Assembly (NCBI GenBank): GCA_012522755.1
Contig: JAAYJV010000112.1
Coordinates: 1-54,865 of the forward strand
Source: Candidatus Hydrogenedens sp.
GTDB lineage: Bacteria > Hydrogenedentota > Hydrogenedentia > Hydrogenedentales > CAITNO01
DNA length: 54,865 nucleotides
Direction of reading: 5' to 3'
Shown: one piece after another, positions 320-21,606 of the stretch
Layout of the letters: each line of letters begins with the position of its first letter
Position numbering within the stretch: the stretch's first letter is position 1
Position numbers and translations under genes: made by a program
The notes under the pieces: generated by a model
The model's input: the letters and a program-made list of their open reading frames with translations, nothing else
What the model was told of the DNA's origin: nothing
Databases searched by the model: none

Positions 320-439
320 AAGGATGTTTTGGTATGATAAATAACCGTAGCAGATGATAGTTTAAAATTTCTCGGCAAACAACACTACGCACCATGGTGT
401 AACACGTGGGAAAAGAATTCAACAGAGGGAGACTTGGCT

Positions 440-3400
440 ATGCCGGTACCACCGATTGTTTCCGACGGACGTTGGCATGGAACGGGGTTGATCCGCATCG
501 GCTTTAATACCTCTTTTCTCTTACTCATTATGGGAAGCCTCTTTCTGCTCGCTCATGGCGAAGAACCACAAGAGTATGCTTGCGAAACGCTCTTCGACCA
601 GGCCTTGAATGCTTTGCAGGAAAGTGACTTGGAAAGAGCACTGGATTATTTGGATAAAACAGCGCAATGCTTTGAAAGGGAGGGGAATGTAATTATGCAG
701 GCCGAGTGTCTCCTGCTCACGGCCGATGTGCTTTCTTTGATGCAGAAGAATGAGGCCGCATTGGATTGCTGCGAACAGGTATTGGCACTCTTTCGAAATC
801 GAGCTCATGCAGAAGAATATCAGATCAAATGTCTCAGCAAAATGGGCTCTGTACTGCAGCAGCTTGGTCATTTCGAAGAAGCTCTGGAGCAATATGAAGA
901 ACTGGCGTCACTGTGTCGCTCGCAACCGGACAGAGAATTAGAACAAGCCATGTGTCTGGGAGCCTGTGGTGACATACACAATGTTCTCGATCGTTCTGAC
1001 CAAGCTATGGAATGCTTCAATGAGGCTTTGAAACTCCTTCAAGCCCGGCCTGGTACCGAAAGCAGCCAAATCCTGTGTTTCAATAAAATGGGCGATACAC
1101 TGCAAGCTTCGGGCCGAGTCGATGATGCTTTGGAGCACTACAGAAAGGCAATGTTTCTTTGTCGCGAACAATCTGACAGCACACTGGAGGAGGTTCATTG
1201 TCTGTCTGCTATGGCTCATATGCTTCAAGATTGTCACCGTCCGGACGAAGCGTTTGAACACTACGCAGAGGCATTGTCGCTCCTTCACACGCAAACAGGG
1301 ACTGAAAGAGAGCAGGCCCAATGCCTGTATAACATGGGCTTTATACAGGAAAAACTCAGACTGTTCGACAAAGCTTTCAATCATTATGATAAAGCTTTGC
1401 AACTCTACAGCCAGCTTCCGAATACGGCTATGGACCAAGCCAATTGTCTCAATGTGATGGGAAATACGCTGCAAGCATTGCGCCGTTATAAGGAGGCGGT
1501 CAACCACTACGAAGGGGCATTACAAGCTTTCCAATCACAAAGAAATACGGAAACAGATCAGGCCATGTGCCTTAACAATATAGGTAATACCCTGCGACTG
1601 TACCATCATTATGGCGAGGCTTTAAAGTACTTTGTGAAGGCACTGGAACTCTACGAGTTAAAACCCGAGCGTAAAACAGATAAATCCAAATGCCTCAATA
1701 ATAAGGGCAATGTGCTTCAACACATGCGCCGCTATGACGAAGCCCTGGAGGATTATGAAGAGGCTTTACAACTTCTCCACACAGAGACAAATACAGAGGT
1801 GGAGCGGGCCATGTGCCTTACCAACATTGGAAATACCCTCCAATATCAGAACCGCTTTGATGAAGCACAGGAGCAATATGAACAGGCATTACAGCTTTAT
1901 CACTCCTTGCCAAATGCGGTAATCGATGAGGCCGCATGTCTCATTAACATAGCTTCTGTTTTCAAAAATAAACGTTGTTATGATGAAGCTCTGGAACAAT
2001 ATGAACAGGCGTCACAGCTATATCAATTGTTGCCAAATGCCCAAACAGGTGAAGCGGCATGCCTTATTAACATGGGTGAAGTTCGTCTTTATCTCCGTCA
2101 ATATGACGAAGCTCTGGAAGATTACGAAGCGGCCTGGCAAATTTATGAGGCTTTACCCCATACAGAAACAGAGCAAGCCACAACCCTTATCGGCATGGCC
2201 AATACCCTCCAATACCTCCAATACCACGGAGAAGCGCTGGAATATTTGAATCAGGCATTGGAGCTTTACCGCTCGATACCATATACAGAAGCGGATCAAG
2301 CCAGGTGCTGTAACAACATCGGCACGGCACTCTATGTCCTCCAACGTTATGATGATGCGTTGAAACAATATGAACTGGCCCGTGGAATCTACGCTTCCGT
2401 GCAAAATACAGAAACAGATCAGGCCATATGTCTGCATAACACAGGGAATGTGCTGGGTGATGTGCGCCGGTATGATGAAGCTTTGGAACATTACGAAAAA
2501 GCCATAAAACTGTGTCGCTCCGTGCCAAATACGGAAATGAATCAGGCCGCGAGTCTCAATAATATGGCTTCAGTACTTCGTGATCTCCATAGAGATAATG
2601 AAGCCCTGAAGAAGATCAAAGAGGCATTGCAGCATTACAGGAGGTTTCAAAATACGGAAGTTGACAAGGCCAGATGCCTGTATAACCTGGCTGCAGTACT
2701 CTATGACCTCCGTCAATATGACGAAGCCCTGGAATACTTTAAGCATGCTCTTGAAAACTACCGCTCTGTGCCGAATACGGAAACAAATCAGGCCGCATGT
2801 CTGGGCTGCACAGGTAATACTCTTCGGAGGCTTCAGCGATCTGAGGAAGCGGAGCCCCTTTATAAAGAAGCCTTCCAGCTCTTTTTCATTCAGCCCGATG
2901 GTGAAACAGGGCAAGCTAATTGCCTGAATAACCTGGGCGTTATGTTCCATGATCTCCGCCATTATGACAAAGCTCTGGAGCAACTTGAAGATTCATTGGG
3001 AATGTATCGTTCCTTGCCAAACACAGAAAAGCATCAGGCTTCATGCCTGGTGAATATCGGGCAGGTTCATGCATGCCAGGATGCCTGGGATCTGGGTTTG
3101 GATTATATATATCAAGGACTTTCAGACATGTGGTCCTGGCATGTGCCTGTGTTGCCCAGGCTCACTGAAGACAACAAAAAGACTTTTCTCAAAGATCTTT
3201 ATAAGATCCCCAGATATCTTTATACCCTGTCCTTCCTCCAGGGAGAAGGCGTGGAATTGGCTGCTCAGAAGGGCCTTGATGTCGCACTCTTGCACAAGGG
3301 TCTTGTGGAATGGGCCACGCAACAGGAACAGTCTTTTTTTCTGGAGATGGCTGGTCCCGACTGGACAAAGAAATATGAAGAGTTGCAGCAATGGCTCAGA

Positions 3401-5101
3401 GAGAAATCCCTTCTGACCCATGTATTGAGAGAGCGATTATTGAAGCCGGAAGAAACAGAAGAATTCCTTTCTGACAAAAGAAATGAAGAGCGGCTGAAAG
3501 AACTGAACAACTGGATCCCGATGAGATTAGAGCACCTGATCTCTCATAACCGGGACTTTGCCCTGGAAATGAAACTGGTTCCTGTGGATATAAGCGAGAT
3601 ATGGAAAGCTCTGGCTCGTCTGTATTCTCCTTCGGCGCTGCTGGAATACGTGAAATATGAGGAGATGGATTTTGTGACGGACCAGCCTGGTGCAGCGCGC
3701 TATGGTGTCTTTGTGCTGACTTCAGAGTCTGAAGAGCCTGTTGCAGTCGACTTGGGTTCGGCGGACATCATTGAAGACGCTGTTGAAACATTTCGTAAAA
3801 CAATCATCGGTTTGAAGAACTATGATGAAAATAAAAAACACCGGGCCGCCAGAAAATGCTTTGAAGCCGGTCAGGCTTTACGTCGTCTCATCTTCGATCC
3901 TGTGGAGGAATATCTTTCTCCGCGAACCCGACTTTTCATTGCTCCTGATGCAGACCTTTTTCTTTTGCCCTTTGAAGCCATGCCTCTGGACGGTGAAAAT
4001 CGGGCTCTCCCCCGCTATCTTCTGGAAGAATTCGACTTTATTTATTTGAACACGGGTCGGGATCTTGTGCCTATGGCGAAACGTCCTCAAAGCAGAGATG
4101 AGAAGAAATCCGCCACCATTGTCTCCAATCCCAGTTTGAACATGAAGGCTTCTGATCGATTGGAAAAAGTCGTACAGTGGATGAATGCTAAAGATCTGCA
4201 ACCATCTCTGGAGGAGCTCTCCCCCACTCGCCCGGTCTCTGAGAGGGGAAAGGAAAAGACCTCAGAAGATCTTGAGGCTACTATGGGTGGCGGAGAAAGC
4301 ATCCCTGTGGATGATGTCCTTAACCTTTTGAAACCCATAGATGGCGCAGAAGACTTTGTTGCAAAGCTTCTCAAAGAGCAGCGTTTTTCCAGTGTCAATC
4401 TTCTGGAAGGCACAGCCGCTCTGGAAGAATGCATATTGAACCAGGAGGAAGCACCGCAGATTCTGCAGATCCTCAGCCATGGTGTCTTTTTGCCCGTACC
4501 GGAATACCTGCAAAAGGATAGTCCTCTGCGCCTGTCAAGCGATTTGAACCAGGCCTCTCAAAGTTTTGAAGACCCTCTCATGCGCTCTTTTCTTGCTCTT
4601 GCCGGAGCTGCTGTACTGACCTCAGGGCATATCTACCGTTCTGGTGAGCAATATTTTACTGCAGAAGAATGGCTGGCTCGGGAACCTGCAGAAGAGGAAG
4701 ATGAATATCTTTCTATCCCTCTCAACGATGGTCGTCTGACGGCCTATGAAGTATCGGGGTTGAACCTGCGAAAAACGGAGCTGGTCGCCCTGACGGCCTG
4801 CAATACGGCTGTAGGCGAAGTGGGTGCCGGCACCAGTGTTGCCGGATTGCGTCGTGCCTTTACAGCGGCCGGTGCCCACAGCATGATCATGGCGCAATGG
4901 GAGGTCCCTGTTGATAATTCCATGCGGCAAATGGACTTGTTTTATGATTTATGGCTGGATGAGGGTTTCAGCCGTTACGACGCCTTCAAAGAATCACAGC
5001 TTGCTATTCTCGAATCAACCCGGCAAAACGCATTCAGCCATCCCTGGTATTGGGCTGGCTTTATTTATATCGGTGATCCCGGAAAGGCGACCGAAAAATA
5101 A
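440..5101 (+). CDS. exported TPR-CHAT protein (caspase-like peptidase), 20 long TPR repeats
   Basis: This is a predicted CHAT-domain cysteine peptidase with a huge TPR sensor region. I take ATG at 440, because GAGGGAGA lies 7 bases upstream; an in-frame TTG sits at 434. Residues about 22-38 are a hydrophobic signal peptide or anchor, so the protein should act outside the cytoplasm. From about residue 55 to 890 there are 20 repeats of 40 residues (not the usual 34), each containing a variant of QAxCLxNxGxxL and ending near PNTE. The C-terminal CHAT domain keeps the expected His (SHG, residue about 1347) and Cys (TACNTA, about 1454), so it looks catalytically competent. The C-terminal part closely resembles the second TPR-CHAT protein at 11925-14972. 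The gene converges on an anti-sigma gene. The substrate is unknown; cleavage of an anti-sigma factor is an inference from context. Confidence 0.9.
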   Translation: MPVPPIVSDGRWHGTGLIRIGFNTSFLLLIMGSLFLLAHGEEPQEYACETLFDQALNALQESDLERALDYLDKTAQCFEREGNVIMQAECLLLTADVLSLMQKNEAALDCCEQVLALFRNRAHAEEYQIKCLSKMGSVLQQLGHFEEALEQYEELASLCRSQPDRELEQAMCLGACGDIHNVLDRSDQAMECFNEALKLLQARPGTESSQILCFNKMGDTLQASGRVDDALEHYRKAMFLCREQSDSTLEEVHCLSAMAHMLQDCHRPDEAFEHYAEALSLLHTQTGTEREQAQCLYNMGFIQEKLRLFDKAFNHYDKALQLYSQLPNTAMDQANCLNVMGNTLQALRRYKEAVNHYEGALQAFQSQRNTETDQAMCLNNIGNTLRLYHHYGEALKYFVKALELYELKPERKTDKSKCLNNKGNVLQHMRRYDEALEDYEEALQLLHTETNTEVERAMCLTNIGNTLQYQNRFDEAQEQYEQALQLYHSLPNAVIDEAACLINIASVFKNKRCYDEALEQYEQASQLYQLLPNAQTGEAACLINMGEVRLYLRQYDEALEDYEAAWQIYEALPHTETEQATTLIGMANTLQYLQYHGEALEYLNQALELYRSIPYTEADQARCCNNIGTALYVLQRYDDALKQYELARGIYASVQNTETDQAICLHNTGNVLGDVRRYDEALEHYEKAIKLCRSVPNTEMNQAASLNNMASVLRDLHRDNEALKKIKEALQHYRRFQNTEVDKARCLYNLAAVLYDLRQYDEALEYFKHALENYRSVPNTETNQAACLGCTGNTLRRLQRSEEAEPLYKEAFQLFFIQPDGETGQANCLNNLGVMFHDLRHYDKALEQLEDSLGMYRSLPNTEKHQASCLVNIGQVHACQDAWDLGLDYIYQGLSDMWSWHVPVLPRLTEDNKKTFLKDLYKIPRYLYTLSFLQGEGVELAAQKGLDVALLHKGLVEWATQQEQSFFLEMAGPDWTKKYEELQQWLREKSLLTHVLRERLLKPEETEEFLSDKRNEERLKELNNWIPMRLEHLISHNRDFALEMKLVPVDISEIWKALARLYSPSALLEYVKYEEMDFVTDQPGAARYGVFVLTSESEEPVAVDLGSADIIEDAVETFRKTIIGLKNYDENKKHRAARKCFEAGQALRRLIFDPVEEYLSPRTRLFIAPDADLFLLPFEAMPLDGENRALPRYLLEEFDFIYLNTGRDLVPMAKRPQSRDEKKSATIVSNPSLNMKASDRLEKVVQWMNAKDLQPSLEELSPTRPVSERGKEKTSEDLEATMGGGESIPVDDVLNLLKPIDGAEDFVAKLLKEQRFSSVNLLEGTAALEECILNQEEAPQILQILSHGVFLPVPEYLQKDSPLRLSSDLNQASQSFEDPLMRSFLALAGAAVLTSGHIYRSGEQYFTAEEWLAREPAEEEDEYLSIPLNDGRLTAYEVSGLNLRKTELVALTACNTAVGEVGAGTSVAGLRRAFTAAGAHSMIMAQWEVPVDNSMRQMDLFYDLWLDEGFSRYDAFKESQLAILESTRQNAFSHPWYWAGFIYIGDPGKATEK

Positions 5102-5301
5102 GGCTTTTCAATTTCGCTCCGGCTCCTGTTTGCCGTGATGAAAGTGGCTGGTAGAGTTGCGCCTGATGATTCACCTGCTTTTCAGGCACCCCGAGACAGC
5201 TCTGATAATCGTCTTATATCTTCCGAAGACAACTTCAGTCCTATGCCTGATGGCAAACAAAAAAAAGCACGGTCGGACAGATCTTTGGAGAGAGGAAAGC
5301 T

Positions 5302-6834
5302 TCAGGAAGGGGCATGACCTTTCTCACCAGCAGGCGCAACGAGTTGTCGGAGGTCTGAAAAAATCTGATGGACTGTATCGTCATAAGCACTTTCCTGTGA
5401 GAGAGGCTGGGCAATCAAGGCTCCTGGCAGCGCTGAATGTATGGCGTACGCCTGATCGTCTTTTCCGGGGAAATGGAGTACAACCGCCTCTTGAGAGAGG
5501 GTATGAACCAAAAGCTCTTGCTTGTCCTGCAGAGTTAAACGCAAAATCGTTGTTTCTCTTTCGGGATTCGCCAGTGCCAGTATTTCTTTCCTGTTGGAGA
5601 GATATTCAGTCTGTTTTATTTCCCGCACTGCATCGCTATCTCTCAAGAGTTCCTGAATTTCCACTGTCAGGAGTCTCAAGTTCTGTTTGTCAGGAGACCA
5701 ATCCAGAATTCCTGTAAGGCCCGTTGTTTCGCCTGCGAAAAGGAAGAGACGCGACGGCATCTCTGTATCCATCTCTTCTTCACAGCTCAGGGTATAGCTC
5801 AGCTCTTCAGTCTGTTGAAACTGAAGGGGCAGGCTGTTATCGAAATAGAAAGGAGGCGCGGGATCGCCGTTACTCGTTCCTTTTTTTATACTGTGGAAAG
5901 CGGCAATAAAACACTCCTGAGTGCCCTGGAGATTTGCAGCTTCCAGACCAGTGGCCAGATTGTCGTCCGGAGGCAGCACTGCACTGATTCCTGGAGCGTA
6001 CAGCAAAGAAATACCTTCCCTTTCATTTTCAGAGACTTTATGTGCCATCAAAGTCAATTCATCATTGATTCGTGTTGTTTCAGGATCTGTATTATGTTCT
6101 CTGGTAATGGTCACAGAGCGAAGCAGCACCAGATCGGATACAGGATCCAGACAGAGGAGGAGTTCTTCCTTTCTTGCCAGTAAAGCCGCTGTGGACAGGA
6201 ATTCTCCTTCGCTGGATTGAACGGCAAAGAGATAAGAGCCCTGTCTGATCTTCCCTTCTGTCTCCGTCAATGGCGAAAAGAGTTCATTTTCCAAAGAACC
6301 CAGAGTGGCTGTCTGTGTCAGATAATGTGTTTTCTGTTCATAGCTTCTGAACAAATCCTTTGCTGAACTCAACTGTTGAAAAAAAGCTGACCCGCTCGAC
6401 AGGACCGGCTTTTCTGTCATCGGAGACCGGGCCAGATCCAGGGCAACTTCACTTCTGTCGGAGCGGTACAACAAGCCACCTGCAACAACAAGCAGTATTG
6501 CAGCCGCCACTCCCATAGAAATCAGAGCACGAAGGGAAAAGAAACGCGAAAAGCTCGGGCGAGCGTATTCTTCCTGGCTGTCTTTGACAAGCTCTTCTGA
6601 TCGTGCAGCCTCCTGTTCCGCTTGAAACTTGCTTTGGGCCTGAAAAATTTCTACGCCGATTTTATCGTCATCAAGCAAGAACAAATAAGGGAGTATACCC
6701 AAGTCATTGATATCATTCTGGCAATCCGGACAGGAGGCAATATGTGTCGCCACAGGCTTTGCTTCTTCGGGCGAAAGATTGCCAGTCAAATAATCCAGAA
6801 TCTCGATTCTGTACTTGTTGCAAGTAGTTTTCAT
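5302..6834 (-). CDS. membrane anti-sigma factor with zinc-finger N-terminus
   Basis: This is a probable transmembrane anti-sigma factor. The cytoplasmic N-terminus has the ZAS-type zinc motif His31-x3-Cys35-x2-Cys38 within a mycobacterial-RsrA/zf-HC2-like helix (YLTGNLSPEEA precedes it). One membrane span lies at about 102-123, followed by an extracytoplasmic domain of nearly 390 residues with no family I recognise. That domain includes FAGETTGLTGIL, shared with the paralogue at 10436-11932. I choose ATG at 6834, with an AGAGAG ribosome site, giving the same start context as the paralogue; an in-frame start 36 bases upstream is possible. No sigma gene adjoins this copy. Its partner may be the sigma factor at 9362 or one elsewhere. 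It converges with the first TPR-CHAT gene, leaving about 200 bases between them. Confidence 0.85.
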   Translation of the reverse strand: MKTTCNKYRIEILDYLTGNLSPEEAKPVATHIASCPDCQNDINDLGILPYLFLLDDDKIGVEIFQAQSKFQAEQEAARSEELVKDSQEEYARPSFSRFFSLRALISMGVAAAILLVVAGGLLYRSDRSEVALDLARSPMTEKPVLSSGSAFFQQLSSAKDLFRSYEQKTHYLTQTATLGSLENELFSPLTETEGKIRQGSYLFAVQSSEGEFLSTAALLARKEELLLCLDPVSDLVLLRSVTITREHNTDPETTRINDELTLMAHKVSENEREGISLLYAPGISAVLPPDDNLATGLEAANLQGTQECFIAAFHSIKKGTSNGDPAPPFYFDNSLPLQFQQTEELSYTLSCEEEMDTEMPSRLFLFAGETTGLTGILDWSPDKQNLRLLTVEIQELLRDSDAVREIKQTEYLSNRKEILALANPERETTILRLTLQDKQELLVHTLSQEAVVLHFPGKDDQAYAIHSALPGALIAQPLSQESAYDDTVHQIFSDLRQLVAPAGEKGHAPS

Positions 6835-7302: not shown

Positions 7303-7935
7303 TTATTCGTTGAGATCTTTTTCAAAGTATAAGTGCCCGACTTCACCTTCAGGACGATCGATAAGGACCTTGGGGTCAATGAGAGGCGGGCGCGGCGGCA
7401 AGGGAGGCGGCGGAGGATTATATCTGTCATCCTCTTTCCCGTCCTCGTCCTCTTCCTCGGAAGATGAGTCTGCTGTGGTATTCTTTTCAGAGTTTTTCCT
7501 TTCAGGGTCCACAACATCAGTCTCTTCGGATTTACCAAGAGTCTCGGACTCTCGACTTGTTAATTTTTCAAGCTCTATTTTGAAACTATCCACCCTGGTT
7601 TCGGAAAAATTTTTGAGGGGATTATTCCTGAGTTCTGATGTATCAAAAGTCATGGGTTTAGGCACTGTTCCCAGTGGCCTTTGCTGATCCAACAGACTCT
7701 TTTGATTCCATAAGCTGCTGTTGGGCTTGTATATCTCTCTCGGTTGCTGATAAATGGGAGTATGGAGAGGAAGGTGCTTGAATGTGTAGGACGGCTTGAA
7801 TGTGTAGGGACCTTTCATCTGGCACGTAGTAAAGGAAGTCCTCGCATAGGAACCCGCTACAATGTTGGAAAACAGAAAAATACCGACCAGCAGAACTGCG
7901 ACAAGACCGAATGTAATCAATCTCCATTGTTTCAT
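7303..7935 (-). CDS. small secreted protein with acidic and proline-rich C-terminus
   Basis: I do not recognise a family. The 210-residue product starts with a clear signal peptide or anchor (positively charged start, then hydrophobic residues about 8-27, ending near VAGSYA). The mature part is hydrophilic and predicted to be disordered. An acidic, serine-rich stretch (SSSEEEDEDGKEDD) is followed by a run of prolines (PPPPPLPPRPP) and a tail ending near HLYFEKDLNE. The ribosome site AAAGGAAC and the leader around TTTATAATAG closely resemble those of the next gene (8174-8719) and of a decayed copy near 9150. This suggests common regulation, perhaps by the neighbouring sigma factor. A substrate, scaffold or cell-surface role is possible; none can be assigned. 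Confidence 0.75.
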   Translation of the reverse strand: MKQWRLITFGLVAVLLVGIFLFSNIVAGSYARTSFTTCQMKGPYTFKPSYTFKHLPLHTPIYQQPREIYKPNSSLWNQKSLLDQQRPLGTVPKPMTFDTSELRNNPLKNFSETRVDSFKIELEKLTSRESETLGKSEETDVVDPERKNSEKNTTADSSSEEEDEDGKEDDRYNPPPPPLPPRPPLIDPKVLIDRPEGEVGHLYFEKDLNE

Positions 7936-8020
7936 GTTAGTGTTCCTTTGTGGCTTGGAAAAGTGTGTTCACCATCTATTCTACTATTATAAACGGAAAA
8001 ATGGACTTTTTTTTTATAAA
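7936..8020 (-). promoter_or_regulatory. shared leader/promoter, copy 1
   Basis: On the reverse strand this reads TTCCGTTTATAATAGTAGAA, about 60 bases before the ATG, then AAAGGAAC at the ribosome site. The same layout precedes the 8174-8719 gene and the remnant at about 8917-9146. TATAAT fits a -10 element; no consensus -35 is obvious. Confidence 0.45.
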
Positions 8021-8109
8021 CAGGTTGTTTTCAGTATGTCTAACGGGAAATATCAATCTAATGTCATTCTAAAGGATTCATGATTGACGAATGAGATTTG
8101 AACCCTGAC

Positions 8110-8138
8110 AGGGCGCAAACCCGGAAGGCTTGCGCCCT
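8110..8138 (-). terminator. 9-bp perfect stem hairpin behind the 8174-8719 gene
   Basis: AGGGCGCAA (8110-8118) pairs with TTGCGCCCT (8130-8138), 36 bases past the stop codon. A degenerate version of this hairpin is present behind the third, decayed copy (about 8880-8920). Confidence 0.55.
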
Positions 8139-8173
8139 TATTTCGAAAGCTATTCAACTGTGTCTTTAATCGA

Positions 8174-8719
8174 TTACCACCCTGTAATCACTCTGTTGCG
8201 GCCCTTTTCCCTTTCCAATCTTTCCAACCCTTCCGGAGAGATGCGACGCAAAATTTCGTCAGTATCGAGAAGAGGGAGTAAAAGCGGGAAATAAGGAGGG
8301 TCGGGATCAGGACCGGGACCCGCTCCGCAGAGTATCCTCGAAGCTCTGAACGTGCTGGCATTGAAACCAGAGCTTTGTATGGCAATTTCCGCAATTCTTT
8401 TTTCTTTGACTTCTGCAAATACCTTAAGTCCATCAGTGGGTATGTTATTAGACTGCACTTTCGCAACATCCAAATTAAGATGGGCATACCTGTTAGCTGA
8501 GGTGAAATCGTGGTTTATTACTTTAGTGCTGTTTTGTATGATGCGGTTGCGATCACAGTTTCTCAGCGTTGCCACATGACCCGAGGATAGGTTTTGAGCA
8601 TTCGTGAAGCCTTTAGAGACCTGAGCAAGTCTCGGAGCAGCAAGGGCATTACCTGTCAGGAATAGCCCGACAAAAACAATGCTGACCAGAAGAAGTGATA
8701 AGAAGCGTTTGTGTTTCAT
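8174..8719 (-). CDS. small secreted protein, sister of 7303-7935
   Basis: This is a 181-residue protein of unknown function. I choose ATG at 8719, which has AAAGGAAC just upstream; a longer frame starting at 8755 has no ribosome site. The N-terminus is a textbook signal peptide (KHKRF, then about 15 hydrophobic residues, cleavage after ALAA). The mature part ends in a proline-rich segment (GPGPDPDPPYFPLLLPLL), followed by a charged helix with LERLEREKG. Its leader and ribosome site match those of 7303-7935 and of a decayed copy just downstream of the sigma-gene promoter. I infer that the gene was duplicated in place and is expressed with its sister. It may be a target of the CHAT/sigma system, which is inference. 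Confidence 0.75.
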   Translation of the reverse strand: MKHKRFLSLLLVSIVFVGLFLTGNALAAPRLAQVSKGFTNAQNLSSGHVATLRNCDRNRIIQNSTKVINHDFTSANRYAHLNLDVAKVQSNNIPTDGLKVFAEVKEKRIAEIAIQSSGFNASTFRASRILCGAGPGPDPDPPYFPLLLPLLDTDEILRRISPEGLERLEREKGRNRVITGW

Positions 8720-8800
8720 GATAATGTTCCTTTTTGGGTTGTAAAAATGCCGCAACTGTCAGTTCTATTAAGTATAAACGGAAGTTTGACGGATTTTTTT
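8720..8800 (-). promoter_or_regulatory. shared leader/promoter, copy 2
   Basis: The reverse strand reads CTTCCGTTTATACTTAATAG about 60 bases upstream of the ATG, then AAAGGAAC. This aligns with copy 1 (TTCCGTTTATAATAGTAGAA). A T-rich run precedes the conserved block in both. Confidence 0.45.
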
Positions 8801-8916
8801 AAAAATTTGCAATTTATTTTGTGATATAAAGAAAAATATCAGAGTGTTTTATTAAATCAAAGATTCTAATTTGATAATTAAGGGGCAAAAATCCTGACAT
8901 TTGGCGCCTTTTTCGA

Positions 8917-9146
8917 AAGCTATTCAACTGTGCTCTTAATCAATTATTACCTTGTATAGGTTTCGCAGTGCGCCTCTTCCCCTTTTTCATCGTTCTTTAA
9001 GTTGTTGAGAGAGGGAAAGAAAAAGAGCAGGAAAATCCAAAGAATCTCTCAAAACAGGGCAAAGACAAAGGCGGGACCGTCTCCCTTTCCAGCCTTTGCG
9101 CCCTGAGCTCTGGAAGCTTTGAAAACAATTTATTTTGCAATACTCC
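8917..9146 (-). pseudogene. decayed third copy of the small secreted-protein gene
   Basis: The downstream part matches that of the 8174-8719 gene: TTCGAAAGCTATTCAACTGT (plus strand) occurs in both at the stop-codon end, followed by near-identical bases. The upstream end retains AAAGGAG and a TTTATAATAAG leader. There is no ATG behind the ribosome site, the signal-peptide part is missing, and the remaining frame does not match the sister protein. I read it as a truncated duplicate. Confidence 0.65.
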
Positions 9147-9265
9147 TTTGTGAGTTGTAACAGTTTATCCAATGCCAGTGTTGCTTATTATAAACACTCT
9201 TATACTTCTTTATTTTAAAAATAAAAGTTTTTCATGGTAAATACTCATATTGTTTCATATAAACC

Positions 9266-9294
9266 TTGATTTATTCTTTCTATCATATTACAAT
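9266..9294 (+). promoter_or_regulatory. sigma-70-like promoter of the sigma/anti-sigma/CHAT operon
   Basis: TTGATT (9266-9271) and TACAAT (9289-9294) are separated by exactly 17 bases, 67 bases before the chosen sigma ATG. This resembles a housekeeping promoter rather than an ECF promoter. It would also read as leader any frame beginning within this stretch. Confidence 0.5.
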
Positions 9295-9361
9295 AGCTCG
9301 AATGCAGCTCTATCCATTTGCAGCTGTATCTGTTCTTTTATTCTTAATAGGGAGTACGGCG

Positions 9362-10402
9362 ATGGCTGATAAAATTGATTACACGAAACTGGATAGCCAA
9401 GAACTGATTGATCGGATTAAAAAAGGAGGCAGAGATCAAGAGAAAATCTTTGATGAGGTGTCCCGTCGTCTTCGTTTGGATGATCGTGATGCTTTGGAAT
9501 TGGTCGTAGAGCTGTGCCAGGGCGATAAGGAAGACCCTCTTACTAAGGATGCTCGGTTCCATCTGTTAGATAATTTTAAGCCTTATATAAAGACAATTAT
9601 TTTAGACAAGTTTACTGAACGTCAACATGATCACATTTGTGAGGAATTGGTCCATGACAAGATCGATAAAAAAGTATATAAGGGAATTGCCACAATGAAA
9701 TACCAGGGGTTTCCTTCCTTTAAAAACTGGCTCGCCACAATTTCAAATAATGCAAGTTCAGATCATTTTAAGAAATGTCGTTCGTCAAAGGTAAAGATAC
9801 CACTTGATTCGCCTGATCCACCTGGAAATATTATTGTTGCCACAAGTACCATTATCGAAGAAGCTTTAGCAGACAATGAGACATTGCGTCTGATACTTGA
9901 GGCAAGGCAAGACCTTACAGAAGATGAGTGGAATGCTGTCGTGTTATTTCATTTTTTCGAAATTGGAGTGAAGAGGTCAGCCAAACTTTTGATTTGCTCT
10001 CAAGGTACAATCAGCAACTGGACAGAGTCTGGTGGAAAGAAAATAGGTGAGTTCTTGGAGGCGCGAGGATTTGACTCTTCCGCTTACAAGAAAAATGTTA
10101 AGCCATCAAAACCATCTAAGAAAAAAAAGAGAAGGGGGTCCCCTCCCCCGAAAACTCCCCCGTGCCTTGAGTCCCGCGCCGCACTCTGGCACTTGAAAAA
10201 CTATGTGCATGATATGCCCGAAGAAATAGAACAGGACGCTATTTTGCTCACGTGGGCATTGGGAAAGAAAGTATCCGATTCTGCTAAGGTGCTTGGGTAT
10301 ACAAAAAAGGAAATGACAGATCTAATTTGGCGGGTATCGCCCGAAGTCGTAAAATATTTAAAGTCCCAAGGCATTAGTGTGAAACTGGACTTTATAATAT
10401 AG
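9362..10402 (+). CDS. sigma-70-like (ECF-type) RNA polymerase sigma factor with C-terminal extension
   Basis: This is a probable alternative sigma factor of 346 residues. Region 2-like sequence lies at about 66-139 (including SFKNWLATISNNASSDHFKK) and a region 4-like helix-turn-helix at about 184-235 (LTEDEWNAVVLFHFFEIGVK, then AKLLICSQGTISNW). A basic, proline-rich linker follows, then an extra 70-residue helical domain with a second HTH-like segment (about 295-325). ECF factors usually stop after region 4. I choose ATG at 9362 because AGGGAG lies 8 bases upstream. The frame stays open further upstream and would encode a signal-like sequence, but those starts have no ribosome site. It is followed after 33 bases by its likely anti-sigma factor. 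Sequence similarity to classic sigma factors is weak, so the family call is moderate. Confidence 0.7.
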   Translation: MADKIDYTKLDSQELIDRIKKGGRDQEKIFDEVSRRLRLDDRDALELVVELCQGDKEDPLTKDARFHLLDNFKPYIKTIILDKFTERQHDHICEELVHDKIDKKVYKGIATMKYQGFPSFKNWLATISNNASSDHFKKCRSSKVKIPLDSPDPPGNIIVATSTIIEEALADNETLRLILEARQDLTEDEWNAVVLFHFFEIGVKRSAKLLICSQGTISNWTESGGKKIGEFLEARGFDSSAYKKNVKPSKPSKKKKRRGSPPPKTPPCLESRAALWHLKNYVHDMPEEIEQDAILLTWALGKKVSDSAKVLGYTKKEMTDLIWRVSPEVVKYLKSQGISVKLDFII

Positions 10403-10435
10403 AATTTAAAAAAAACATTTTCTGGAGGTCCTTCA

Positions 10436-11932
10436 ATGAACCCATGCTCTGATGCTTATAAAATAAAGATTCTTGATTATTTGACAGGGAACCTTTCAAA
10501 GGAAGATAGCGCCGAGGTGGCTGCTCATCTGGAAAGATGCTCGCAGTGCCGTGAAGCCGTGGAAGAACTGGGCGTGCTCCCCTACATTTGGCAGCTTGAT
10601 GACATTGAAATCCAAGAAGAAATAGAGCAAGAAGCTGCGGCTGATCAAAGGAAAGACCGTAAAGCGTCCTCGCTGAAGGAAAGGGTTCTTGGCTTGCCGG
10701 TGCTTTTACCTGCTGGCGCCCTTGCTGTTGCAGCACTGGCTCTTTTGATTTTCAACATTCTGCATGTTCCTGATGTGACGGACTCATCACACAGGCAGAT
10801 GGCCCGGTTATCCACAAAGCTTCAACTCCAGGCATCGACCTGGCAGCCTCTGTTTGAGGGATCGGAGCATGCAGACTTTTTGTTTCAACCTTATCAGGAC
10901 AGGCAGGAGCTTTCATTAATAAGCAAAACGCCAACTTTAGGAACAGTCTCCGATTACTCTTACCAGCCCTCAACCGAAACAGAAGCACTCATTCGGATGG
11001 GATATTACCTTTTTGCCGTAACAGATGAGTCAACGGGCGGAAAGATTATTTCAACAGCCGTGCTCTTGGATCGCTCACGTTCTTTATTTGTTGCTCTGGA
11101 TGTCGTACCGGAAAAAGTCCTGCTTCGACGTACTTTACTTACCAGAGAAGAGAATGCGGAGCTGGCGCGGGTAGATCATGAGGTGGCTTTTGTGGCAACA
11201 CGAGTGGCTCAAGATGAAGAGGCGGCGATAGCCTTGCTCCATGCTCCCGGTGTTCAGCACTTTTTGCCGGAAAACTCGGGACTGGCGACTGGCCTCTCCA
11301 CAGCAACATTATCGGGCGAATTGGATTGCTTTCTTGCGGCCTTTTCCCAGGAGACCACGCCGGATACTCAGACTGATTCGGCTCTCTCGCCTCTTTTCTA
11401 CTTTGACCTTGATTTTCCCTTTGAGTTTTCTGAAAATGCCGACGGAGAACATCTTGTCAGCTGCGATCCACTGGAGTTCGAAGATACCGTGTTACCCCGC
11501 CGTTTCTTTGTTTTCGCCGGGGAAACAACAGGTCTTACAGGCATTTTAGATTTTGATCCGGATCAGCAGGAGTTTCGTTTTCTCCAGGTCGAAATAGCAA
11601 ATCTGGTGAACAAAGCTTCCGCAAAAATCCACAGCAGCCAGGCTGATTTTGAAAGGGAACTTGAACAGAACGCAGCCTTTAAGAATTCTCTGGAAGGCCG
11701 AGAAGCGATAACAATTGAGGACAGTGAAAAGACAGGGAATGTGCAATGCCATCCCTATTCTGCAGAGGCCTATGTGTTGACTTTCGACAGGAACAGAGAC
11801 GGAGTGCCTGAGTATGCCATTCATTGCGATTATCCCGGTGTACTGGTGGCCTGGCCTTTGCCCGGAGAAGCTGAAGCCGACGAAGCATACCAAACATTTT
11901 TCAGAACAATGAAGCAGATTCTTTTTGAATAA
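10436..11932 (+). CDS. membrane anti-sigma factor, paralogue of 5302-6834
   Basis: This anti-sigma factor has 498 residues. Its zinc motif His31-x3-Cys35-x2-Cys38 sits at the same positions as in the paralogue, after the matching YLTGNLS helix. One membrane span at about 88-109 is followed by an extracytoplasmic domain of about 385 residues. That domain shares FAGETTGLTGIL and a C-terminal YAIH...PG segment with the paralogue. The start ATG has GGAGG 8 bases upstream. It lies between the sigma gene and the second TPR-CHAT gene, overlapping the latter by 8 bases, so the products are probably translationally coupled. Its likely role is to hold the sigma factor at the membrane until the extracytoplasmic domain is altered or cleaved. 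Confidence 0.87.
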   Translation: MNPCSDAYKIKILDYLTGNLSKEDSAEVAAHLERCSQCREAVEELGVLPYIWQLDDIEIQEEIEQEAAADQRKDRKASSLKERVLGLPVLLPAGALAVAALALLIFNILHVPDVTDSSHRQMARLSTKLQLQASTWQPLFEGSEHADFLFQPYQDRQELSLISKTPTLGTVSDYSYQPSTETEALIRMGYYLFAVTDESTGGKIISTAVLLDRSRSLFVALDVVPEKVLLRRTLLTREENAELARVDHEVAFVATRVAQDEEAAIALLHAPGVQHFLPENSGLATGLSTATLSGELDCFLAAFSQETTPDTQTDSALSPLFYFDLDFPFEFSENADGEHLVSCDPLEFEDTVLPRRFFVFAGETTGLTGILDFDPDQQEFRFLQVEIANLVNKASAKIHSSQADFERELEQNAAFKNSLEGREAITIEDSEKTGNVQCHPYSAEAYVLTFDRNRDGVPEYAIHCDYPGVLVAWPLPGEAEADEAYQTFFRTMKQILFE

Positions 11933-14900
11933 TCAGCTTAAAAAGAAAATCTTCTATGGGCGGGCTGCTCTTCAAATACTTTGGAGAACAGTCCGCCTTC
12001 AATTTTTAAGGCCCGCAGTATCGCTCTTGTTCCTGCTGCAGCTTTGCAGCCAGCCTTACGGGTATACATCAACAGAAAATTCATTGGAAGTTTCTCAGGA
12101 GTACGCAGTTTCTGATGAGCAGCAGCAATCAGAGGCGCAGCCGGCCACCGAAATTCATGAGTTGATGGAAGAGGCAAATATCTGCATCAAAACGCGATCT
12201 TTTGAAGCGGACGGGGAAGTTTTGCAGATCTCTGATGAACCCGCCCAGGCTGATACGATATGTGAAATTCAAAGAAATATAGCAGATCAGGGCAAGCATC
12301 AAACAGGACAGGACTACCCGAAAACAGCCGAGGAGACACTCAATACATACTCATTCAACCCGGTAGAATATGCACAATCTCTCATAGAGGAAGCCGAAAT
12401 ATTAAACACATTGTGCTGTTTCCCGGAAGCGAAGCACCTGGTTCATGAGGCTATGGAAATTCTGAAAGACTGTCCTGAACATCGTGATCTTTATGCCTCC
12501 GCTTTAATCTCAGCTGCCCGTACTCAATCATATATAGGTGATTTTAAAAAAGCTGTTGAGTTATTGGAAAATAGTGTTGAGATCCTTTCTAAAATTGAAG
12601 AGCATGGATACTTCTATGGTGAGGCGCAGCTGCATCTGGCGGAAATCTATAGGACGCACAAAGAGTATGATAAAGCCTTGGAATCTTTGGAGGTTTCCGA
12701 AAAAACACTTGCTCATGAAGAGAATCCAGGCTACTTTGAGTATCAGATTAAATATGCTCGTGGCGAGTGTTTATTTGGCAAGGAAGACTATTCGAGAGCC
12801 TTGACTGAGATTGATGAGGCTTTGAAACTGGCTGAAAGATACAACGAGGATCAACAGACAAGAGCCGCGTTTTATTTACTTCGCGCAAAAGTCCTGGCTG
12901 GTTTGCAAGAATATGATGAAGCCTTTGAAGCTCTGTCTCTTGATTTTCTGAAGAAAATGTTTCCCGAATATCCCGCTCTGGAAAAAGACCACAAGTTGAT
13001 AACGGCTTTCATTCACTTTCAAAAAAAAGACCTGGAAAAAACGCAAGAGTTTCTGCTCTCCGCTCATGAGTTATTGTATGAACACTATATGCCCAACCTT
13101 CCAAAATTATCGGAAAGCGACAAAGCTCAGTTCATTTCAGAGCATTGGCTTATTCCTGATTCCCTCTACACCTTGTCTTTCCACCACCTGAATCCGGGAA
13201 AAGCAGGTTTGGAAGCTGTTTTGATGCACAAAGGACTTGTCGAGTCTGTGCTTCAAAATGAACAACAATTCTTACACCGCGGCTTTTATGAAGACAGCGA
13301 AATCCCAAATCTCTATGAGACTATGATGGAACTGCGACAGCAAAAAGCTTCTGATGTTTTGGACGCAGACTACTCTGAGGAATCGGGATGCCCGGAGAGA
13401 ACAAACCACGCAAAGGAGCGGCTGGTTGCTGAGCTGGACAGCGAACTGGCCAGAAAAAGACAGCCTCACGCCGAAAAGATGCTTCCACCCCGCATTGGTT
13501 TTGAGAAAGTGAAGGAGATTTTCCGTGACCATTCACCGGGCGCTGTTCTTTTGGAATATGTGAAATACAGACCCGAAAGATTTGATAATATCACTCATTT
13601 TCTGAATACTCAATCAGATAAAGAGAGTGAAGAAGAGCGATACGGTGTTTTTATTGTACACCCTGGTTTTGCAGATCCCCTGGCCATAGATTTGGGACCA
13701 GCGCAGGATATTGTCGAGAAAGTTGGTGCTTTTCGGTCTGCAGTGAATGATTCCTTCAAGTCCAAGATTTTGCGCAATACAAAAAAATGCGCTGATACGG
13801 CCATTGAAGTGCGCAGATTGATTTTTGATCCCCTCACCCCCTATCTGAGGGATCGGACACGTCTTTTTATTGTGCCTGATGCAGAATTATTTCTTTTGCC
13901 TTTTGAGGCATTGCCCAGTACTCACTCATACGAGCTCCCCTGCTCTTATCTTCTCGGGGATTATGAGATTATTTACCTGAACAGTGGCCGGGAGTTGCTC
14001 CGTTTGACTGATGAACGCAAGGTGGAGAAGCATAGAAAAACAGCCACGGTTATTTCTGATCCCGATCTGTATATGAAAGATTCTGAGCGTGCTGAAATAC
14101 TGGTCAACTGGTACAATGGTAAAGAAAGAGCACAGCCGACAAACAGCATAAAGCCTGGAGCGAGAGTGTCTCAATCCTTGCGACTCGGACTCTCTTCTCT
14201 GGGTCCCATACCGGATGCTGCAAAGTTCATACAAAATGTCTTTACAACAGAGCGTTTTTCTTCATTGAATAAATGGGAAGGCCGTTATGCTTTGGAAGAT
14301 AAACTTTTCCAGTGCGAAGCCCCTCAAGTTTTACAGATCCTGTCTCACGGCATTTCACTTGAAGACTATAATCGTCTCTTGGCTCAAGTGACCCCCCACA
14401 GTGAAAGAGGACTCCTGGACTCTGTCGAAAATCCTTTGTTCCGCTCTTTTCTGGCATTGGCCGGAGCATCCGTCTCCACATCTGAGGTGATCTATTGTCA
14501 GAACAGCTGTTATTTCACCAGAGAGCAATGGCAAGCCCTGCCCCCTGAAGAGAAAGGAGAAGACTTCAGGGAAATAGCGATCAATGACGGGTGCCTCACA
14601 GCCTATGAAGTATCCGGCTTGAATCTTTTGAACACGGAAATCGTGTCATTGGCCGCCTGCAATACAGCGATTGGAGATGTGGCACGCGGTGCGAATGTTG
14701 CCGGATTGCGGCACGCTTTCACCATCGCCGGAGCCAAAAGCATGATCATGTCACAATGGAAAATCCCTATGGAACATACCATCGAGCAGATGGAAAATTT
14801 CTACCTTTTCTGGTTGGATGAAGGGATGGGGCGTTATGAGGCTTTCAGAGAGTCTCAACTAATCGCCTTGGAAGAAGCACGGGATTGTTACGGAGGACAT

Positions 14901-14972
14901 CCAAAATTCTGGGCGGGACTCATTTACATCGGCGATCCGGGTCCCGCTTCCGGTAATACAGAAAGGGAGTGA
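11925..14972 (+). CDS. exported TPR-CHAT protein (caspase-like peptidase), operon partner of sigma/anti-sigma
   Basis: This is a CHAT-domain peptidase of 1,015 residues. The start is TTG at 11925 inside the end of the anti-sigma gene. The next in-frame ATG is far downstream, past the signal-like stretch RPAVSLLFLLQLC, so the TTG start is needed for export. A low-complexity acidic region precedes a modest TPR array (about 145-390), much shorter than in the first TPR-CHAT protein. The C-terminal CHAT domain has the catalytic pair His808 (SHG) and Cys912 (AACNTA). From about residue 350 to the end it aligns well with the protein at 440-5101 (shared LFIxPDAxLFLLPFEAxP, TAYEVSGLNL and YIGDPG). Coupling to an anti-sigma gene suggests that factor as substrate; this is unproven. 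Confidence 0.9.
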   Translation: MNNQLKKKIFYGRAALQILWRTVRLQFLRPAVSLLFLLQLCSQPYGYTSTENSLEVSQEYAVSDEQQQSEAQPATEIHELMEEANICIKTRSFEADGEVLQISDEPAQADTICEIQRNIADQGKHQTGQDYPKTAEETLNTYSFNPVEYAQSLIEEAEILNTLCCFPEAKHLVHEAMEILKDCPEHRDLYASALISAARTQSYIGDFKKAVELLENSVEILSKIEEHGYFYGEAQLHLAEIYRTHKEYDKALESLEVSEKTLAHEENPGYFEYQIKYARGECLFGKEDYSRALTEIDEALKLAERYNEDQQTRAAFYLLRAKVLAGLQEYDEAFEALSLDFLKKMFPEYPALEKDHKLITAFIHFQKKDLEKTQEFLLSAHELLYEHYMPNLPKLSESDKAQFISEHWLIPDSLYTLSFHHLNPGKAGLEAVLMHKGLVESVLQNEQQFLHRGFYEDSEIPNLYETMMELRQQKASDVLDADYSEESGCPERTNHAKERLVAELDSELARKRQPHAEKMLPPRIGFEKVKEIFRDHSPGAVLLEYVKYRPERFDNITHFLNTQSDKESEEERYGVFIVHPGFADPLAIDLGPAQDIVEKVGAFRSAVNDSFKSKILRNTKKCADTAIEVRRLIFDPLTPYLRDRTRLFIVPDAELFLLPFEALPSTHSYELPCSYLLGDYEIIYLNSGRELLRLTDERKVEKHRKTATVISDPDLYMKDSERAEILVNWYNGKERAQPTNSIKPGARVSQSLRLGLSSLGPIPDAAKFIQNVFTTERFSSLNKWEGRYALEDKLFQCEAPQVLQILSHGISLEDYNRLLAQVTPHSERGLLDSVENPLFRSFLALAGASVSTSEVIYCQNSCYFTREQWQALPPEEKGEDFREIAINDGCLTAYEVSGLNLLNTEIVSLAACNTAIGDVARGANVAGLRHAFTIAGAKSMIMSQWKIPMEHTIEQMENFYLFWLDEGMGRYEAFRESQLIALEEARDCYGGHPKFWAGLIYIGDPGPASGNTERE

Positions 14973-15230: not shown

Positions 15231-17942
15231 ATGATGCAGAACAATGACTTGAAACTGAAAGATCTCTGGAATGGCATGACTGAAGAGGAACAGGAGAATG
15301 CCTGTGAATTGTTTTGGCAAGATGAATCCCAAGACAAGAAACTTCAGGAAGAGGTACTTCAGGAACTTTCACGTCGGCTGCACTTTCGTCTCAAGTATAT
15401 GAAGCGTCGGCCGTTGCCGGATAAAATTCGTTTTCTCAAGCGCTTTATTCTCGCGCCTTCCCTCATGCACTCTTTGGATTCTGTCATACGAGGATGGCTT
15501 CTGGCCCACCATCGTGACATGATCTGTGCTTTTCTGGACGCAGCCGGTATCCCTCATGAGAAAGGACTCATCGAAGACGAACCAACGCCACCTGATGCCG
15601 AGCAGTATAAAGTCAGTATCCTGAAACTCCTGGACAGCTACGATCGTCGTCTTGTGGCTCTGTACGTGGGTTACCTCTTATTTTCCAGAGATGAATTGTG
15701 GCGGCCCTTGCATGATGCACTCCCTATGGCTTCCGTCGATGTTGCGGCCTTGCTCTCCGAGCAGTTGGAAGAAAAGGAACTGATTGAACAGGAGCCTGAA
15801 GAAGAAGAGGAAGAACCGGAAAGAACAGACAGTTTCACCACCCTCGATCGTATGCTCATCAAGACAGCCGTTGCCTCCGCTCTTCAGGTTGATTATGCCC
15901 TGCCTGAAGAAGAACTCGAGCATCTTATAGACGAGGTGGTTGAGCTGAATGTTGAAAGAAAACATTCCTTTTTTCATCGGGGCTATTTTAACGCTCTCTT
16001 CGAAAGAGAAATGCAGTACGATATTTCAGGAGGGAACGAAGAGCGTAGAAACTGGTATTTCTGCGGTGCTTTCTTAGGCTTCTTGAGGCGGTCCGACAAC
16101 GCAAAATGCCACGAAATGCTGTTGCAACAGAAGGCAATCGTTGATGCATTGGCACACAGCCGGTCTTATGAGTGTGGTGCCATGCTTCTGCCCCATGTTT
16201 ATCCCATTCTTCTGGAAGATCAGGAATTTGATCTCCTCAGATCGTGGTTGCACAATCACATTTTCGGAATGCCCTCAGAGGAGAGAGAATCCTTTTTGAT
16301 ACAGGTTTATCAGGATGCGGCCAGACTGTTGCGACGTGGAGCTTCGGCTGAAACGGGCCTGTTGCTGGAAGTTCTGACAAAAATATTGAGTCGCAAAGGA
16401 GGCTTGGATCCCCGCTTCATAAGGCAATATGGTCCCCTCATTTGCCGAAAACAAGGTCAGGCCTTACAGCTGGAAGGGAATTTCACAAAAGCCCTGGATC
16501 TGTTCAAGTGGGCTGTTGATAAACTGCAGGACGAAGATGCGGCCAATACACACACTGATATGGGACTGATTGCGGGACGCTTCAAATCGCTGAAATCTAT
16601 TTTGCCTGAAAAAAATATTGATGATGCAAAGACTATTGCTTATTCCCTTAAAAAAGGAGAAACACATTATAGTGAAGCCATAAATGAACATGGTGAGCTG
16701 GCTACCAATGCTCATTTTTGCATGGGAGTCTTGTATTTCATCGGTTCCAGCAAGTGTGAAGAAAAATGTGCCCATCATTTGCAGTTCGCCTTGGAAGGCA
16801 TGCTCAGAAAACAGGAAATTTATGAGGAACATGGACTGCTGGACTGGACAAAGCTCATGCTCGGTATAGCACTGCTGGAGTCAGCGGAGCCTGCGCATTT
16901 GCAGTTTGCCATTGATTCCATCGAACACAATCTGGAGAACACAATCAAATTTCCCATGTGGCTCTGGGAAAAAGTTTTGGGAGCACTCAAAATGTATGAT
17001 GTCTCCAAGATTACAGAGGATGTGGCACTGCGACTCTTTCAGAAGCGGAAGGATGAAGCCTTCAATACCTTGTGGTCTGCTGAACTTTATGATATGGGCG
17101 TTTTGCAGGAACCCTTTTTCCAATGGCTTAAAGACAAAAAAGAACCCGTATTTGAAAAATGGAATGATTTGGAAACGCTTTTTCATGCAGCCAGAAAACA
17201 GGGAGAGACAAATCTCTGTGGCGAGATACTGGACTTCATGGAGATACAATCGAAGTTGGAAAGAGAATGCCGAAAACTCTTTATCGCTTTTCTGGAACAC
17301 AATCCCGTGCTGCAACCCATTTGGGATGAAAGCGATATCATGTCGGTTCTGGCCAGGCTTTATGAGTGCGAAGGCGATTGGATCAATGCGGGAATCAAGC
17401 AGCGCGTGGCATTTTATCGATGCAGAGACGGTGGAGAGATACATCAGATTCAGGAGGCCCGACAGATCATTACCACCATCCAGAGCTACGGCGTAGAAGA
17501 GGACTATTGGAGAGATCTGGATCAGTGCCTTGTGGGACTGGAACAGCAGAATTTGCAAGCACTGGAGCAGGAACAGCTTTCAGGAGAAAAACTGAATGCA
17601 AATGTTTTGTATATCGGTGGCAATGAGACTCAGGAGGCCTATGTGGAATCCATTGAGAATGAGCTTCGCGAACAGTATCCACGCCTCCAATGTACCCTCC
17701 TCTTCCCCGGCTGGAACACAAACTGGAGCTTGGATTTCAATAAGGCCAAGAGACATATCATCACGGCGGACGTTGTGGTCATCAATTATCTCATCAGAAC
17801 TCAGCTGGGGCGGGCACTGCGAAAATACTGCGGCTCAGATCATCCCTGGATAGGCTGTGGTGGGCGCGGCCGCGAGTCTATTTTAAATCGCATCATACAA
17901 GCAGCGTTTTGGATCAGAACAGTAAATCCAAGTACAGGATAG
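15231..17942 (+). CDS. 903-residue helical-repeat protein with DUF2325-like C-terminus
   Basis: The function is unknown. Most of the protein is soluble and alpha-helical, with TPR-like stretches at about 410-560 (for example ALDLFKWAVDKL, AHFCMGVLYFI). An acidic tract lies near 187-198 (EQEPEEEEEEPE). The last 115 residues form a compact domain: VLYIGGNETQ, then ADVVVINYLIRTQ, then RALRKYC and WIGCGGRGRESI. This order resembles DUF2325, a Rossmann-like domain with no settled function. No signal peptide is seen, so it should be cytoplasmic. The start is one of two adjacent ATGs (15231 or 15234) behind AAGGGG. It lies 258 bases after the CHAT operon on the same strand and may be its effector or regulator, which is inferred from position only. 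Confidence 0.6.
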   Translation: MMQNNDLKLKDLWNGMTEEEQENACELFWQDESQDKKLQEEVLQELSRRLHFRLKYMKRRPLPDKIRFLKRFILAPSLMHSLDSVIRGWLLAHHRDMICAFLDAAGIPHEKGLIEDEPTPPDAEQYKVSILKLLDSYDRRLVALYVGYLLFSRDELWRPLHDALPMASVDVAALLSEQLEEKELIEQEPEEEEEEPERTDSFTTLDRMLIKTAVASALQVDYALPEEELEHLIDEVVELNVERKHSFFHRGYFNALFEREMQYDISGGNEERRNWYFCGAFLGFLRRSDNAKCHEMLLQQKAIVDALAHSRSYECGAMLLPHVYPILLEDQEFDLLRSWLHNHIFGMPSEERESFLIQVYQDAARLLRRGASAETGLLLEVLTKILSRKGGLDPRFIRQYGPLICRKQGQALQLEGNFTKALDLFKWAVDKLQDEDAANTHTDMGLIAGRFKSLKSILPEKNIDDAKTIAYSLKKGETHYSEAINEHGELATNAHFCMGVLYFIGSSKCEEKCAHHLQFALEGMLRKQEIYEEHGLLDWTKLMLGIALLESAEPAHLQFAIDSIEHNLENTIKFPMWLWEKVLGALKMYDVSKITEDVALRLFQKRKDEAFNTLWSAELYDMGVLQEPFFQWLKDKKEPVFEKWNDLETLFHAARKQGETNLCGEILDFMEIQSKLERECRKLFIAFLEHNPVLQPIWDESDIMSVLARLYECEGDWINAGIKQRVAFYRCRDGGEIHQIQEARQIITTIQSYGVEEDYWRDLDQCLVGLEQQNLQALEQEQLSGEKLNANVLYIGGNETQEAYVESIENELREQYPRLQCTLLFPGWNTNWSLDFNKAKRHIITADVVVINYLIRTQLGRALRKYCGSDHPWIGCGGRGRESILNRIIQAAFWIRTVNPSTG

Positions 17943-21590: not shown

Positions 21591-21606
21591 TTGTTTGTTT
21601 CCTGTC

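Follow-up and report, generated by a model that had tools for sequence, protein, structure and literature searches.

An ECF sigma factor, a zinc-finger membrane anti-sigma factor and a TPR-CHAT protein encoded together in Candidatus Hydrogenedens: a conserved module with Craspase-like wiring

A stretch of 54,865 nucleotides (nt) from a 4.0-Mb draft genome of Candidatus Hydrogenedens sp. (contig JAAYJV010000112.1; hereafter the window) encodes, on one strand and in the order given by the original prediction, an extracytoplasmic function (ECF) sigma factor (P0006), a zinc-finger anti-sigma factor (P0001) and a CHAT protein with tetratricopeptide repeats (TPRs; P0002). It is well supported that this trio represents a real, conserved and widespread module, with a wiring like that of the Craspase system in type III-E CRISPR loci, where the TPR-CHAT protein Csx29 cuts Csx30, the inhibitor of CASP-sigma (PMC10028731). 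The three parts very probably act together, and the best single explanation for the arrangement, to which we give about an even chance of being correct, is that the CHAT protein would activate the sigma factor by cutting the anti-sigma factor. The coordinates of the features are collected in Table 1.

The trio and its paralogous pair in the window

The sigma and anti-sigma genes are separated by 33 nt and the anti-sigma and CHAT genes overlap by the 8 nt originally described, with the TTG start of P0002 (11925) lying within the end of the anti-sigma gene. The short gap followed by an overlap fits an operon arrangement. The sigma gene had been taken to begin at 9266; the open frame does span 9266-10402, but the likely start is an ATG at 9362, preceded by AGGGAG about 10 nt upstream. 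The sigma-70-like promoter proposed for the operon (TTGATT-17-TACAAT) is likewise present and well placed, but sites of this kind are no commoner than in shuffled sequence (13 observed vs 9.2 ± 3.3), and it is not counted as evidence.

P0006 matches the TIGR02937 model over residues 94-229 with an E-value of 7.4e-9 and a score of 35.4 bits, which is under the cut-off of 42.9, and the best matches of its profile are solved sigma-H/AlgU chains (E 3e-7) and sigma-E chains. The homology to regions 2 and 4 identifies P0006, at the level of sequence, as an ECF-type member of the sigma-70 family, and an additional domain of about 75 residues is present at its C-terminus. No second close relative of this sigma factor was found in the window genome.

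The second protein of the trio presents a zf-HC2 domain (25.9 bits, with a Pfam cut-off of 22.2) in which residues H31, C35 and C38 of the HxxxCxxC zinc motif are invariant among its relatives. A single strong transmembrane (TM) segment spans residues 87-105, with the inner side richer in Lys and Arg, and the predicted extracytoplasmic domain encompasses about 390 residues, in line with the membrane topology first proposed for this protein. Searches with the P0001 profile against the PDB returned RslA, the zinc anti-sigma partner of sigma-L, as the best match (E 4e-4). An N-terminal zinc domain followed by one TM segment is the pattern of zinc-type class I anti-sigma factors, and P0001 is predicted to bind and inhibit P0006.

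The P0001 ectodomain contains a pattern (STAVLLD...LDVVPE...VAQDEEAAIALL...GILD) reminiscent of HtrA proteases, but retaining none of the three catalytic residues. A Foldseek search with the low-confidence AlphaFold model of P0001 (mean pLDDT 44.5, alignment of 3 rows) yielded chymotrypsin-fold proteins as its first 15 matches, including MucD and RsgI9 (7sjy), with a best E-value of 2.5e-3, and hhalign comparison of the ectodomain with 20 HtrA domains gave no significant match. The ectodomain may adopt a dead trypsin-like fold, which we treat as a lead only.

In P0002, the residues of the CHAT dyad (H808 in an LSHG motif and C912 in an AACN motif) are both present and invariant with its relatives, in agreement with the catalytically intact domain originally described. 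This His-Cys dyad is that of the clan CD CHAT proteases, and protease activity is predicted for P0002. The TTG start lacks a strong ribosome-binding site. The N-terminal region presents a hydrophobic segment (VSLLFLLQLC) after seven Lys or Arg residues, which a hydropathy heuristic rates as a moderate export signal, and the same approach detects stronger signals in the paralogue P0003 and in the orthologue from another genus. The AlphaFold model of P0002 has a mean pLDDT of 50.4 (alignment of 6 rows), and its 50 listed matches are TPR proteins only. Since the models of both P0001 and P0002 are poor, no claim on the active site or on a complex is based on them.

Beyond the trio, which it had correctly outlined, the original prediction overlooked a second TPR-CHAT protein (P0003) and a second anti-sigma factor (P0004) in the window. 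P0003 is 39% identical to P0002 over 736 columns and presents repeats of about 41 residues (123 nt in the DNA), a strong signal peptide and an intact dyad. P0004 has an ectodomain of the same kind as that of P0001 and is not accompanied by a neighbouring sigma gene of its own, and the genes encoding P0003 and P0004 are convergent. Genome-wide, P0003 is the only other CHAT protein and P0004 the only other relative of P0001. Given this paralogous pair and a single close sigma factor, the locus comprises two CHATs, two inhibitors and one sigma.

Distribution and forms of the module

The full trio was identified in the same order, with all genes on the minus strand, in another genus of the same family (G003, locus L010), where the sigma factor, anti-sigma factor and CHAT protein share 27, 25 and 29% identity with their counterparts in the window. 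In a third genus (G007, L017), the locus encodes a sigma factor, a short anti-sigma factor ending just past the TM helix and a CHAT frame that starts inside the anti-sigma gene; a break in the assembly may affect the 5' end of this CHAT gene.

The CHAT domain is present in 115 of 386 genomes, spread over bacterial families. To survey its neighbourhoods outside the phylum, we sampled 100 stretches around well-scoring CHAT matches, containing 107 CHAT genes, and called sigma factors with a home-made ECF profile; among 25 of the trio sigmas checked with Pfam, 19 match region 2 and 20 match region 4. A same-strand ECF sigma gene lies within 2 kb of 35 of the 107 CHAT genes, a fraction that is rough because it derives from well-scoring hits and draft contigs. 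The firm part of the survey is the strand contrast: in the regions directly upstream of the CHAT genes (0-2 kb, 183 kb in total), 29 sigma genes were found on the same strand and none on the opposite one. On the CHAT tree, the sigma linkage requires at least 30 changes, which indicates many gains or losses. The conserved linkage expected from the window trio is thus observed both within the family and in many other families, and it extends to a natural fusion. In this fusion (L123 in genome G202), a single protein encoded 15 bp after the sigma gene consists, in this order, of zf-HC2 (25.8 bits), a TM segment around residue 142, a TPR region and CHAT (206 bits), which by construction would place its inhibitor part on the inner side of the membrane and its CHAT part on the outer side.

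It could be argued that these genes are chance neighbours, or the product of operon drift, and functionally unlinked, given that these genomes contain many TPR and ECF genes and that a genome of the same genus (G001) lacks the CHAT and the anti-sigma factor. This explanation is very improbable, being for the most part refuted by the strand bias upstream of CHAT genes; the many families involved, the fusion and the duplicated pair in the window also speak against it.

In the linked loci, a zinc-finger anti-sigma gene usually lies between the sigma and CHAT genes. The His and both Cys residues of HxxxCxxC are kept in at least 90% of the 23 rows of the middle-gene alignment, with a zf-HC2 match in 16 of the 23. 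The linked CHATs retain the catalytic Cys in all 35 cases and the catalytic His in 33. This retention of the dyad, to which both window copies conform, points to selection for catalysis and argues against a purely binding role, in which the CHAT protein would be a partner or co-sensor of the anti-sigma factor and ligand binding at its TPRs would pull or shield the ectodomain, freeing the sigma factor uncut. Such a role, which we consider rather unlikely, would nonetheless be compatible with TPR arrays being binding scaffolds, with the loss of the catalytic His in two linked CHATs and with the fused protein of L123, which could act by a change of shape. In one genome, two full sigma/anti-sigma/CHAT trios are arranged in tandem (L105, 2246-12929).

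The localisation of the anti-sigma factor and that of the CHAT protein, as called from hydropathy rather than by a trained predictor, agree in 23 of 24 trios (Fisher 5.6e-6, over trios that the CHAT tree divides only once, as weighed below). The CHAT protein is predicted to be cytoplasmic in all 10 trios with a soluble anti-sigma factor and carries an export-type N-terminus in 13 of the 14 with a membrane anti-sigma factor. Export of the window CHAT, part of the original prediction, is therefore upheld as a prediction, although the signal of P0002 itself is only moderate.

Other forms of the module differ in gene order and domain content. A variant found in the Hydrogenedentota (L054, L056, L059, L060, L064 and others) presents the order FHA-CHAT, sigma and soluble zf-HC2 protein. 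Genes for a Ser/Thr kinase and for outer-membrane proteins often adjoin these FHA-CHAT modules. In other families (L160, L168 and L171), a protein with the architecture nucleotide cyclase-CHAT-TM-TPR-CsgG is encoded directly after a sigma factor and a soluble zinc-finger protein. A similar cyclase-CHAT protein is encoded in L172, where the sigma/zinc-finger pair was not seen. Across these forms, the sigma factor, the zinc inhibitor and the CHAT domain are constant, and the sensor part varies.

Proposed mechanism and comparison with known systems

In the mechanism that we propose for the window trio, the zinc-finger N-terminus of P0001 would sequester P0006 in an inactive state on the inner membrane face. 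P0001 would span the membrane once, exposing its large ectodomain outside. P0002 would be exported to the same side as this ectodomain and, upon a trigger perceived by its TPRs, its CHAT domain would cut the ectodomain or stalk of P0001 in a site-1 step. The RseP-type site-2 protease encoded in the window genome (PF02163, E 1.4e-62) and a cytoplasmic protease would complete the degradation of P0001, and the released sigma factor would turn on neighbouring genes for secreted proteins. Sigma binding, cleavage, trigger and regulon are the parts of this model that we infer.

Several observations weigh against this mechanism. Relatives of the CHAT protein and of the anti-sigma factor are absent from the same-genus genome G001 (one genome), suggesting that the module comes and goes. 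Two linked CHATs of a single genome (L097 and L116, both G128) present Tyr at the position of the catalytic His, which implies that proteolysis is not required everywhere; these two proteins could serve as naturally occurring inactive variants. Membrane and soluble trios split at a single branch of the CHAT tree; the tree hence points to two ancestral layouts, each of them consistent, and the agreement in localisation could be inherited. Reading that agreement as 24 independent events was rejected on these grounds. Finally, the CHAT protein could belong to the output of the sigma factor and not be its activator, a rival considered below with the candidate target genes.

Like the window trio, Craspase (Cas7-11/Csx29/Csx30/CASP-sigma) encodes together a TPR-CHAT protein, a sigma inhibitor and an ECF-type sigma factor, whereas the trio features a zf-HC2 membrane anti-sigma factor and a CHAT protein with predicted export. 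The analogy drawn by the original prediction holds for this wiring but does not extend to the ancestry of the window copy. No CRISPR-like array was detected in positions 1-25000 of the window, in accordance with the CRISPR-free locus initially described, and Pfam identified no Cas gene among the neighbouring genes searched. The score of P0006 against the III-E CASP-sigma model (NF041236) is 17.4 bits, with a cut-off of 100, and is weaker than those for 13 other ECF models. HMMER searches with the window CHAT profile against the PDB returned no Csx29 chain at E <= 1. The window trio is thus not a member of type III-E.

Matches to the Craspase protease were obtained with the CHAT proteins of the soluble trios, both with a single sequence (E 3e-5) and with a profile (E 7e-19 against the S. 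brodae protein and 5e-11 against that of D. ishimotonii), compared with E-values of 0.005 or worse for those of the membrane trios. By sequence, the soluble form of the module found in other phyla is the nearer analogue of Craspase. An origin of Csx29 within the soluble-trio clade was also considered and set aside: pairwise matches speak for it with S. brodae and against it with D. ishimotonii, and the tree leaves Csx29 unplaced.

The trio resembles regulated intramembrane proteolysis of the RseA/DegS/RseP type in its single-pass zinc-type anti-sigma factor, the site-2 protease and the proposed extracytoplasmic site-1 step. In RseA/DegS/RseP, site-1 cleavage is performed by a PDZ serine protease; for the trio we propose that this step is carried out by the TPR-bearing CHAT protein of the operon itself, which would be a cysteine protease of clan CD. 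The ECF54 group is described as lacking an anti-sigma factor and as having CHAT, subtilase or carboxypeptidase neighbours; its CHAT proteins are conserved nearby, and proteolytic control has been proposed (PMC8999054). The window trio falls outside the ECF54 definition, since an anti-sigma gene lies between its sigma and CHAT genes. Caspase neighbourhoods with an ECF sigma factor and a DUF1822 TPR protein have also been reported (PMC8195603); they resemble the trio but are of the EACC2 type, involve other partners and have no zf-HC2 anti-sigma factor described. RsgI9 of Clostridium thermocellum is a membrane anti-sigma factor with a protease-like S1C ectodomain (PMC12203970), and differs from P0001 in belonging to the RsgI family, undergoing autocleavage, having a different N-terminal domain, acting with SigI sigmas and lacking a CHAT partner. 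Full-text searches of open-access papers revealed no account of a module of sigma factor, anti-sigma factor and CHAT protein other than in CRISPR loci. The adjacency of ECF54 and CHAT genes without an anti-sigma factor has already been described.

We tentatively suggest that CHAT proteins might generally be dedicated proteases of ECF anti-sigma factors, acting at site 1 or in the cytoplasm and equipped with interchangeable sensors (exported TPR, soluble TPR, FHA, or nucleotide cyclase with TM). The Craspase circuit would then be a captured instance of this older switch. If so, the module would explain a possible source of the type III-E Craspase wiring. CHAT proteins are common and mostly lack known substrates, and the module offers a testable one. 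In addition, it provides a candidate protease for many switches governed by ECF sigmas, the most widespread alternative sigmas, whose trigger is often unknown.

Candidate output and neighbouring genes

In the window genome, a promoter-like element, GTTTATAnnTAATAGAAC, has a single exact match, which lies next to the trio and precedes the start of a gene for a small secreted protein by 43 nt. G003 contains two exact matches (L010 3281-3298 and 915-932), each before a secreted-protein gene flanking its trio. Chance alone would give about 0.002-0.003 such matches per genome, a figure that overstates the case because the element was first spotted by eye among some 10 compared upstream regions and only then checked genome-wide. 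The element is absent upstream of the sigma gene itself, and a systematic bipartite search for a shared sigma-specific promoter gave nothing above shuffles. The secreted proteins behind the element in the two genera show no visible relatedness. Adjoining the G003 trio, L010 also encodes a membrane protein with a DnaJ domain, surrounded by secreted proteins with NPYGRYGSPYSSDSI repeats (263-976, 1064-2578 and 2749-3252).

The element shared by the secreted neighbours is compatible with a different role for the CHAT protein, in which it would be co-expressed with the sigma factor as part of its output and cut other envelope proteins, such as the secreted neighbours or proteins of invaders, with the sigma factor activated by other means. 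ECF operons are usually self-regulating, so that their member genes can be targets. The sigma-inhibitor-CHAT order and the inhibitor/CHAT fusion, on the other hand, tie the CHAT protein to the inhibitor and not to the target genes, and in Craspase the TPR-CHAT protein acts upstream of the sigma factor (PMC10028731). We regard this output role as unlikely.

Table 1. Features of the window and of the related trio in G003 (coordinates of the latter refer to L010)
Feature	Position	Strand	Basis or remark
P0006, ECF-type sigma factor, 346 residues	9362..10402	+	NCBIfam ECF models down to E 7e-9; profile against solved chains; G003 orthologue
P0001, zf-HC2 anti-sigma factor (H31, C35, C38)	10436..11932	+	Pfam; RslA profile match; topology
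P0002, TPR-CHAT protease-like protein, N-terminal hydrophobic segment	11925..14972	+	CHAT 150 bits; TPR_12 E 4.5e-13
P0003, paralogous TPR-CHAT protein, up to 1555 residues	~434..5101	+	39% identical to P0002
P0004, paralogous anti-sigma factor, 510 residues, TM 104-122	5302..6834	-	zf-HC2 26.5 bits; 36% identical to P0001
Promoter-like site TTGATT-17-TACAAT	9266..9294	+	Upstream of sigma; chance level
Promoter-like element GTTTATACTTAATAGAAC, candidate sigma target site	8762..8779	-	Sole exact match in window genome
Small secreted protein (MKHKRFLSLLLVSIVFVG..., signal peptide), candidate regulon member	8174..8719	-	Element upstream
Second small secreted or anchored protein	7303..7935	-	Element variant upstream, ~7983-8003
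G003 trio (L010)	sigma 10067-10999; anti-sigma 8537-10042; CHAT 3326-8413	-	Family relative

Downstream of the trio, an AbiEii toxin and an AbiEi-type antitoxin (Pfam E 4e-36; DUF6088 E 1e-35) are encoded at 19982-21674. The proximity of this AbiE pair, 5 kb away, and the occurrence of CHAT and caspase domains in conflict systems, some of them with ECF sigmas (PMC8195603), might suggest a defence or cell-death switch, in which an invader would trigger the CHAT protein and the sigma response would be protective, a role of the kind that has been put forward for CHAT proteins of conflict systems. PADLOC assigned no defence family to the sigma factor, the anti-sigma factor or P0002, and the predicted export of the CHAT protein suits envelope sensing, making a defence function improbable.

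Directly after the trio, positions 15231-17942 encode a protein of 903 residues, for which Pfam and NCBIfam searches at E <= 1 gave a chance match only. A 53-nt repeat (81%) occurs at 8134-8186 and 8904-8956, just upstream of the sigma promoter region, and marks an apparent, now decayed duplicate of the terminal part of the secreted-protein gene.

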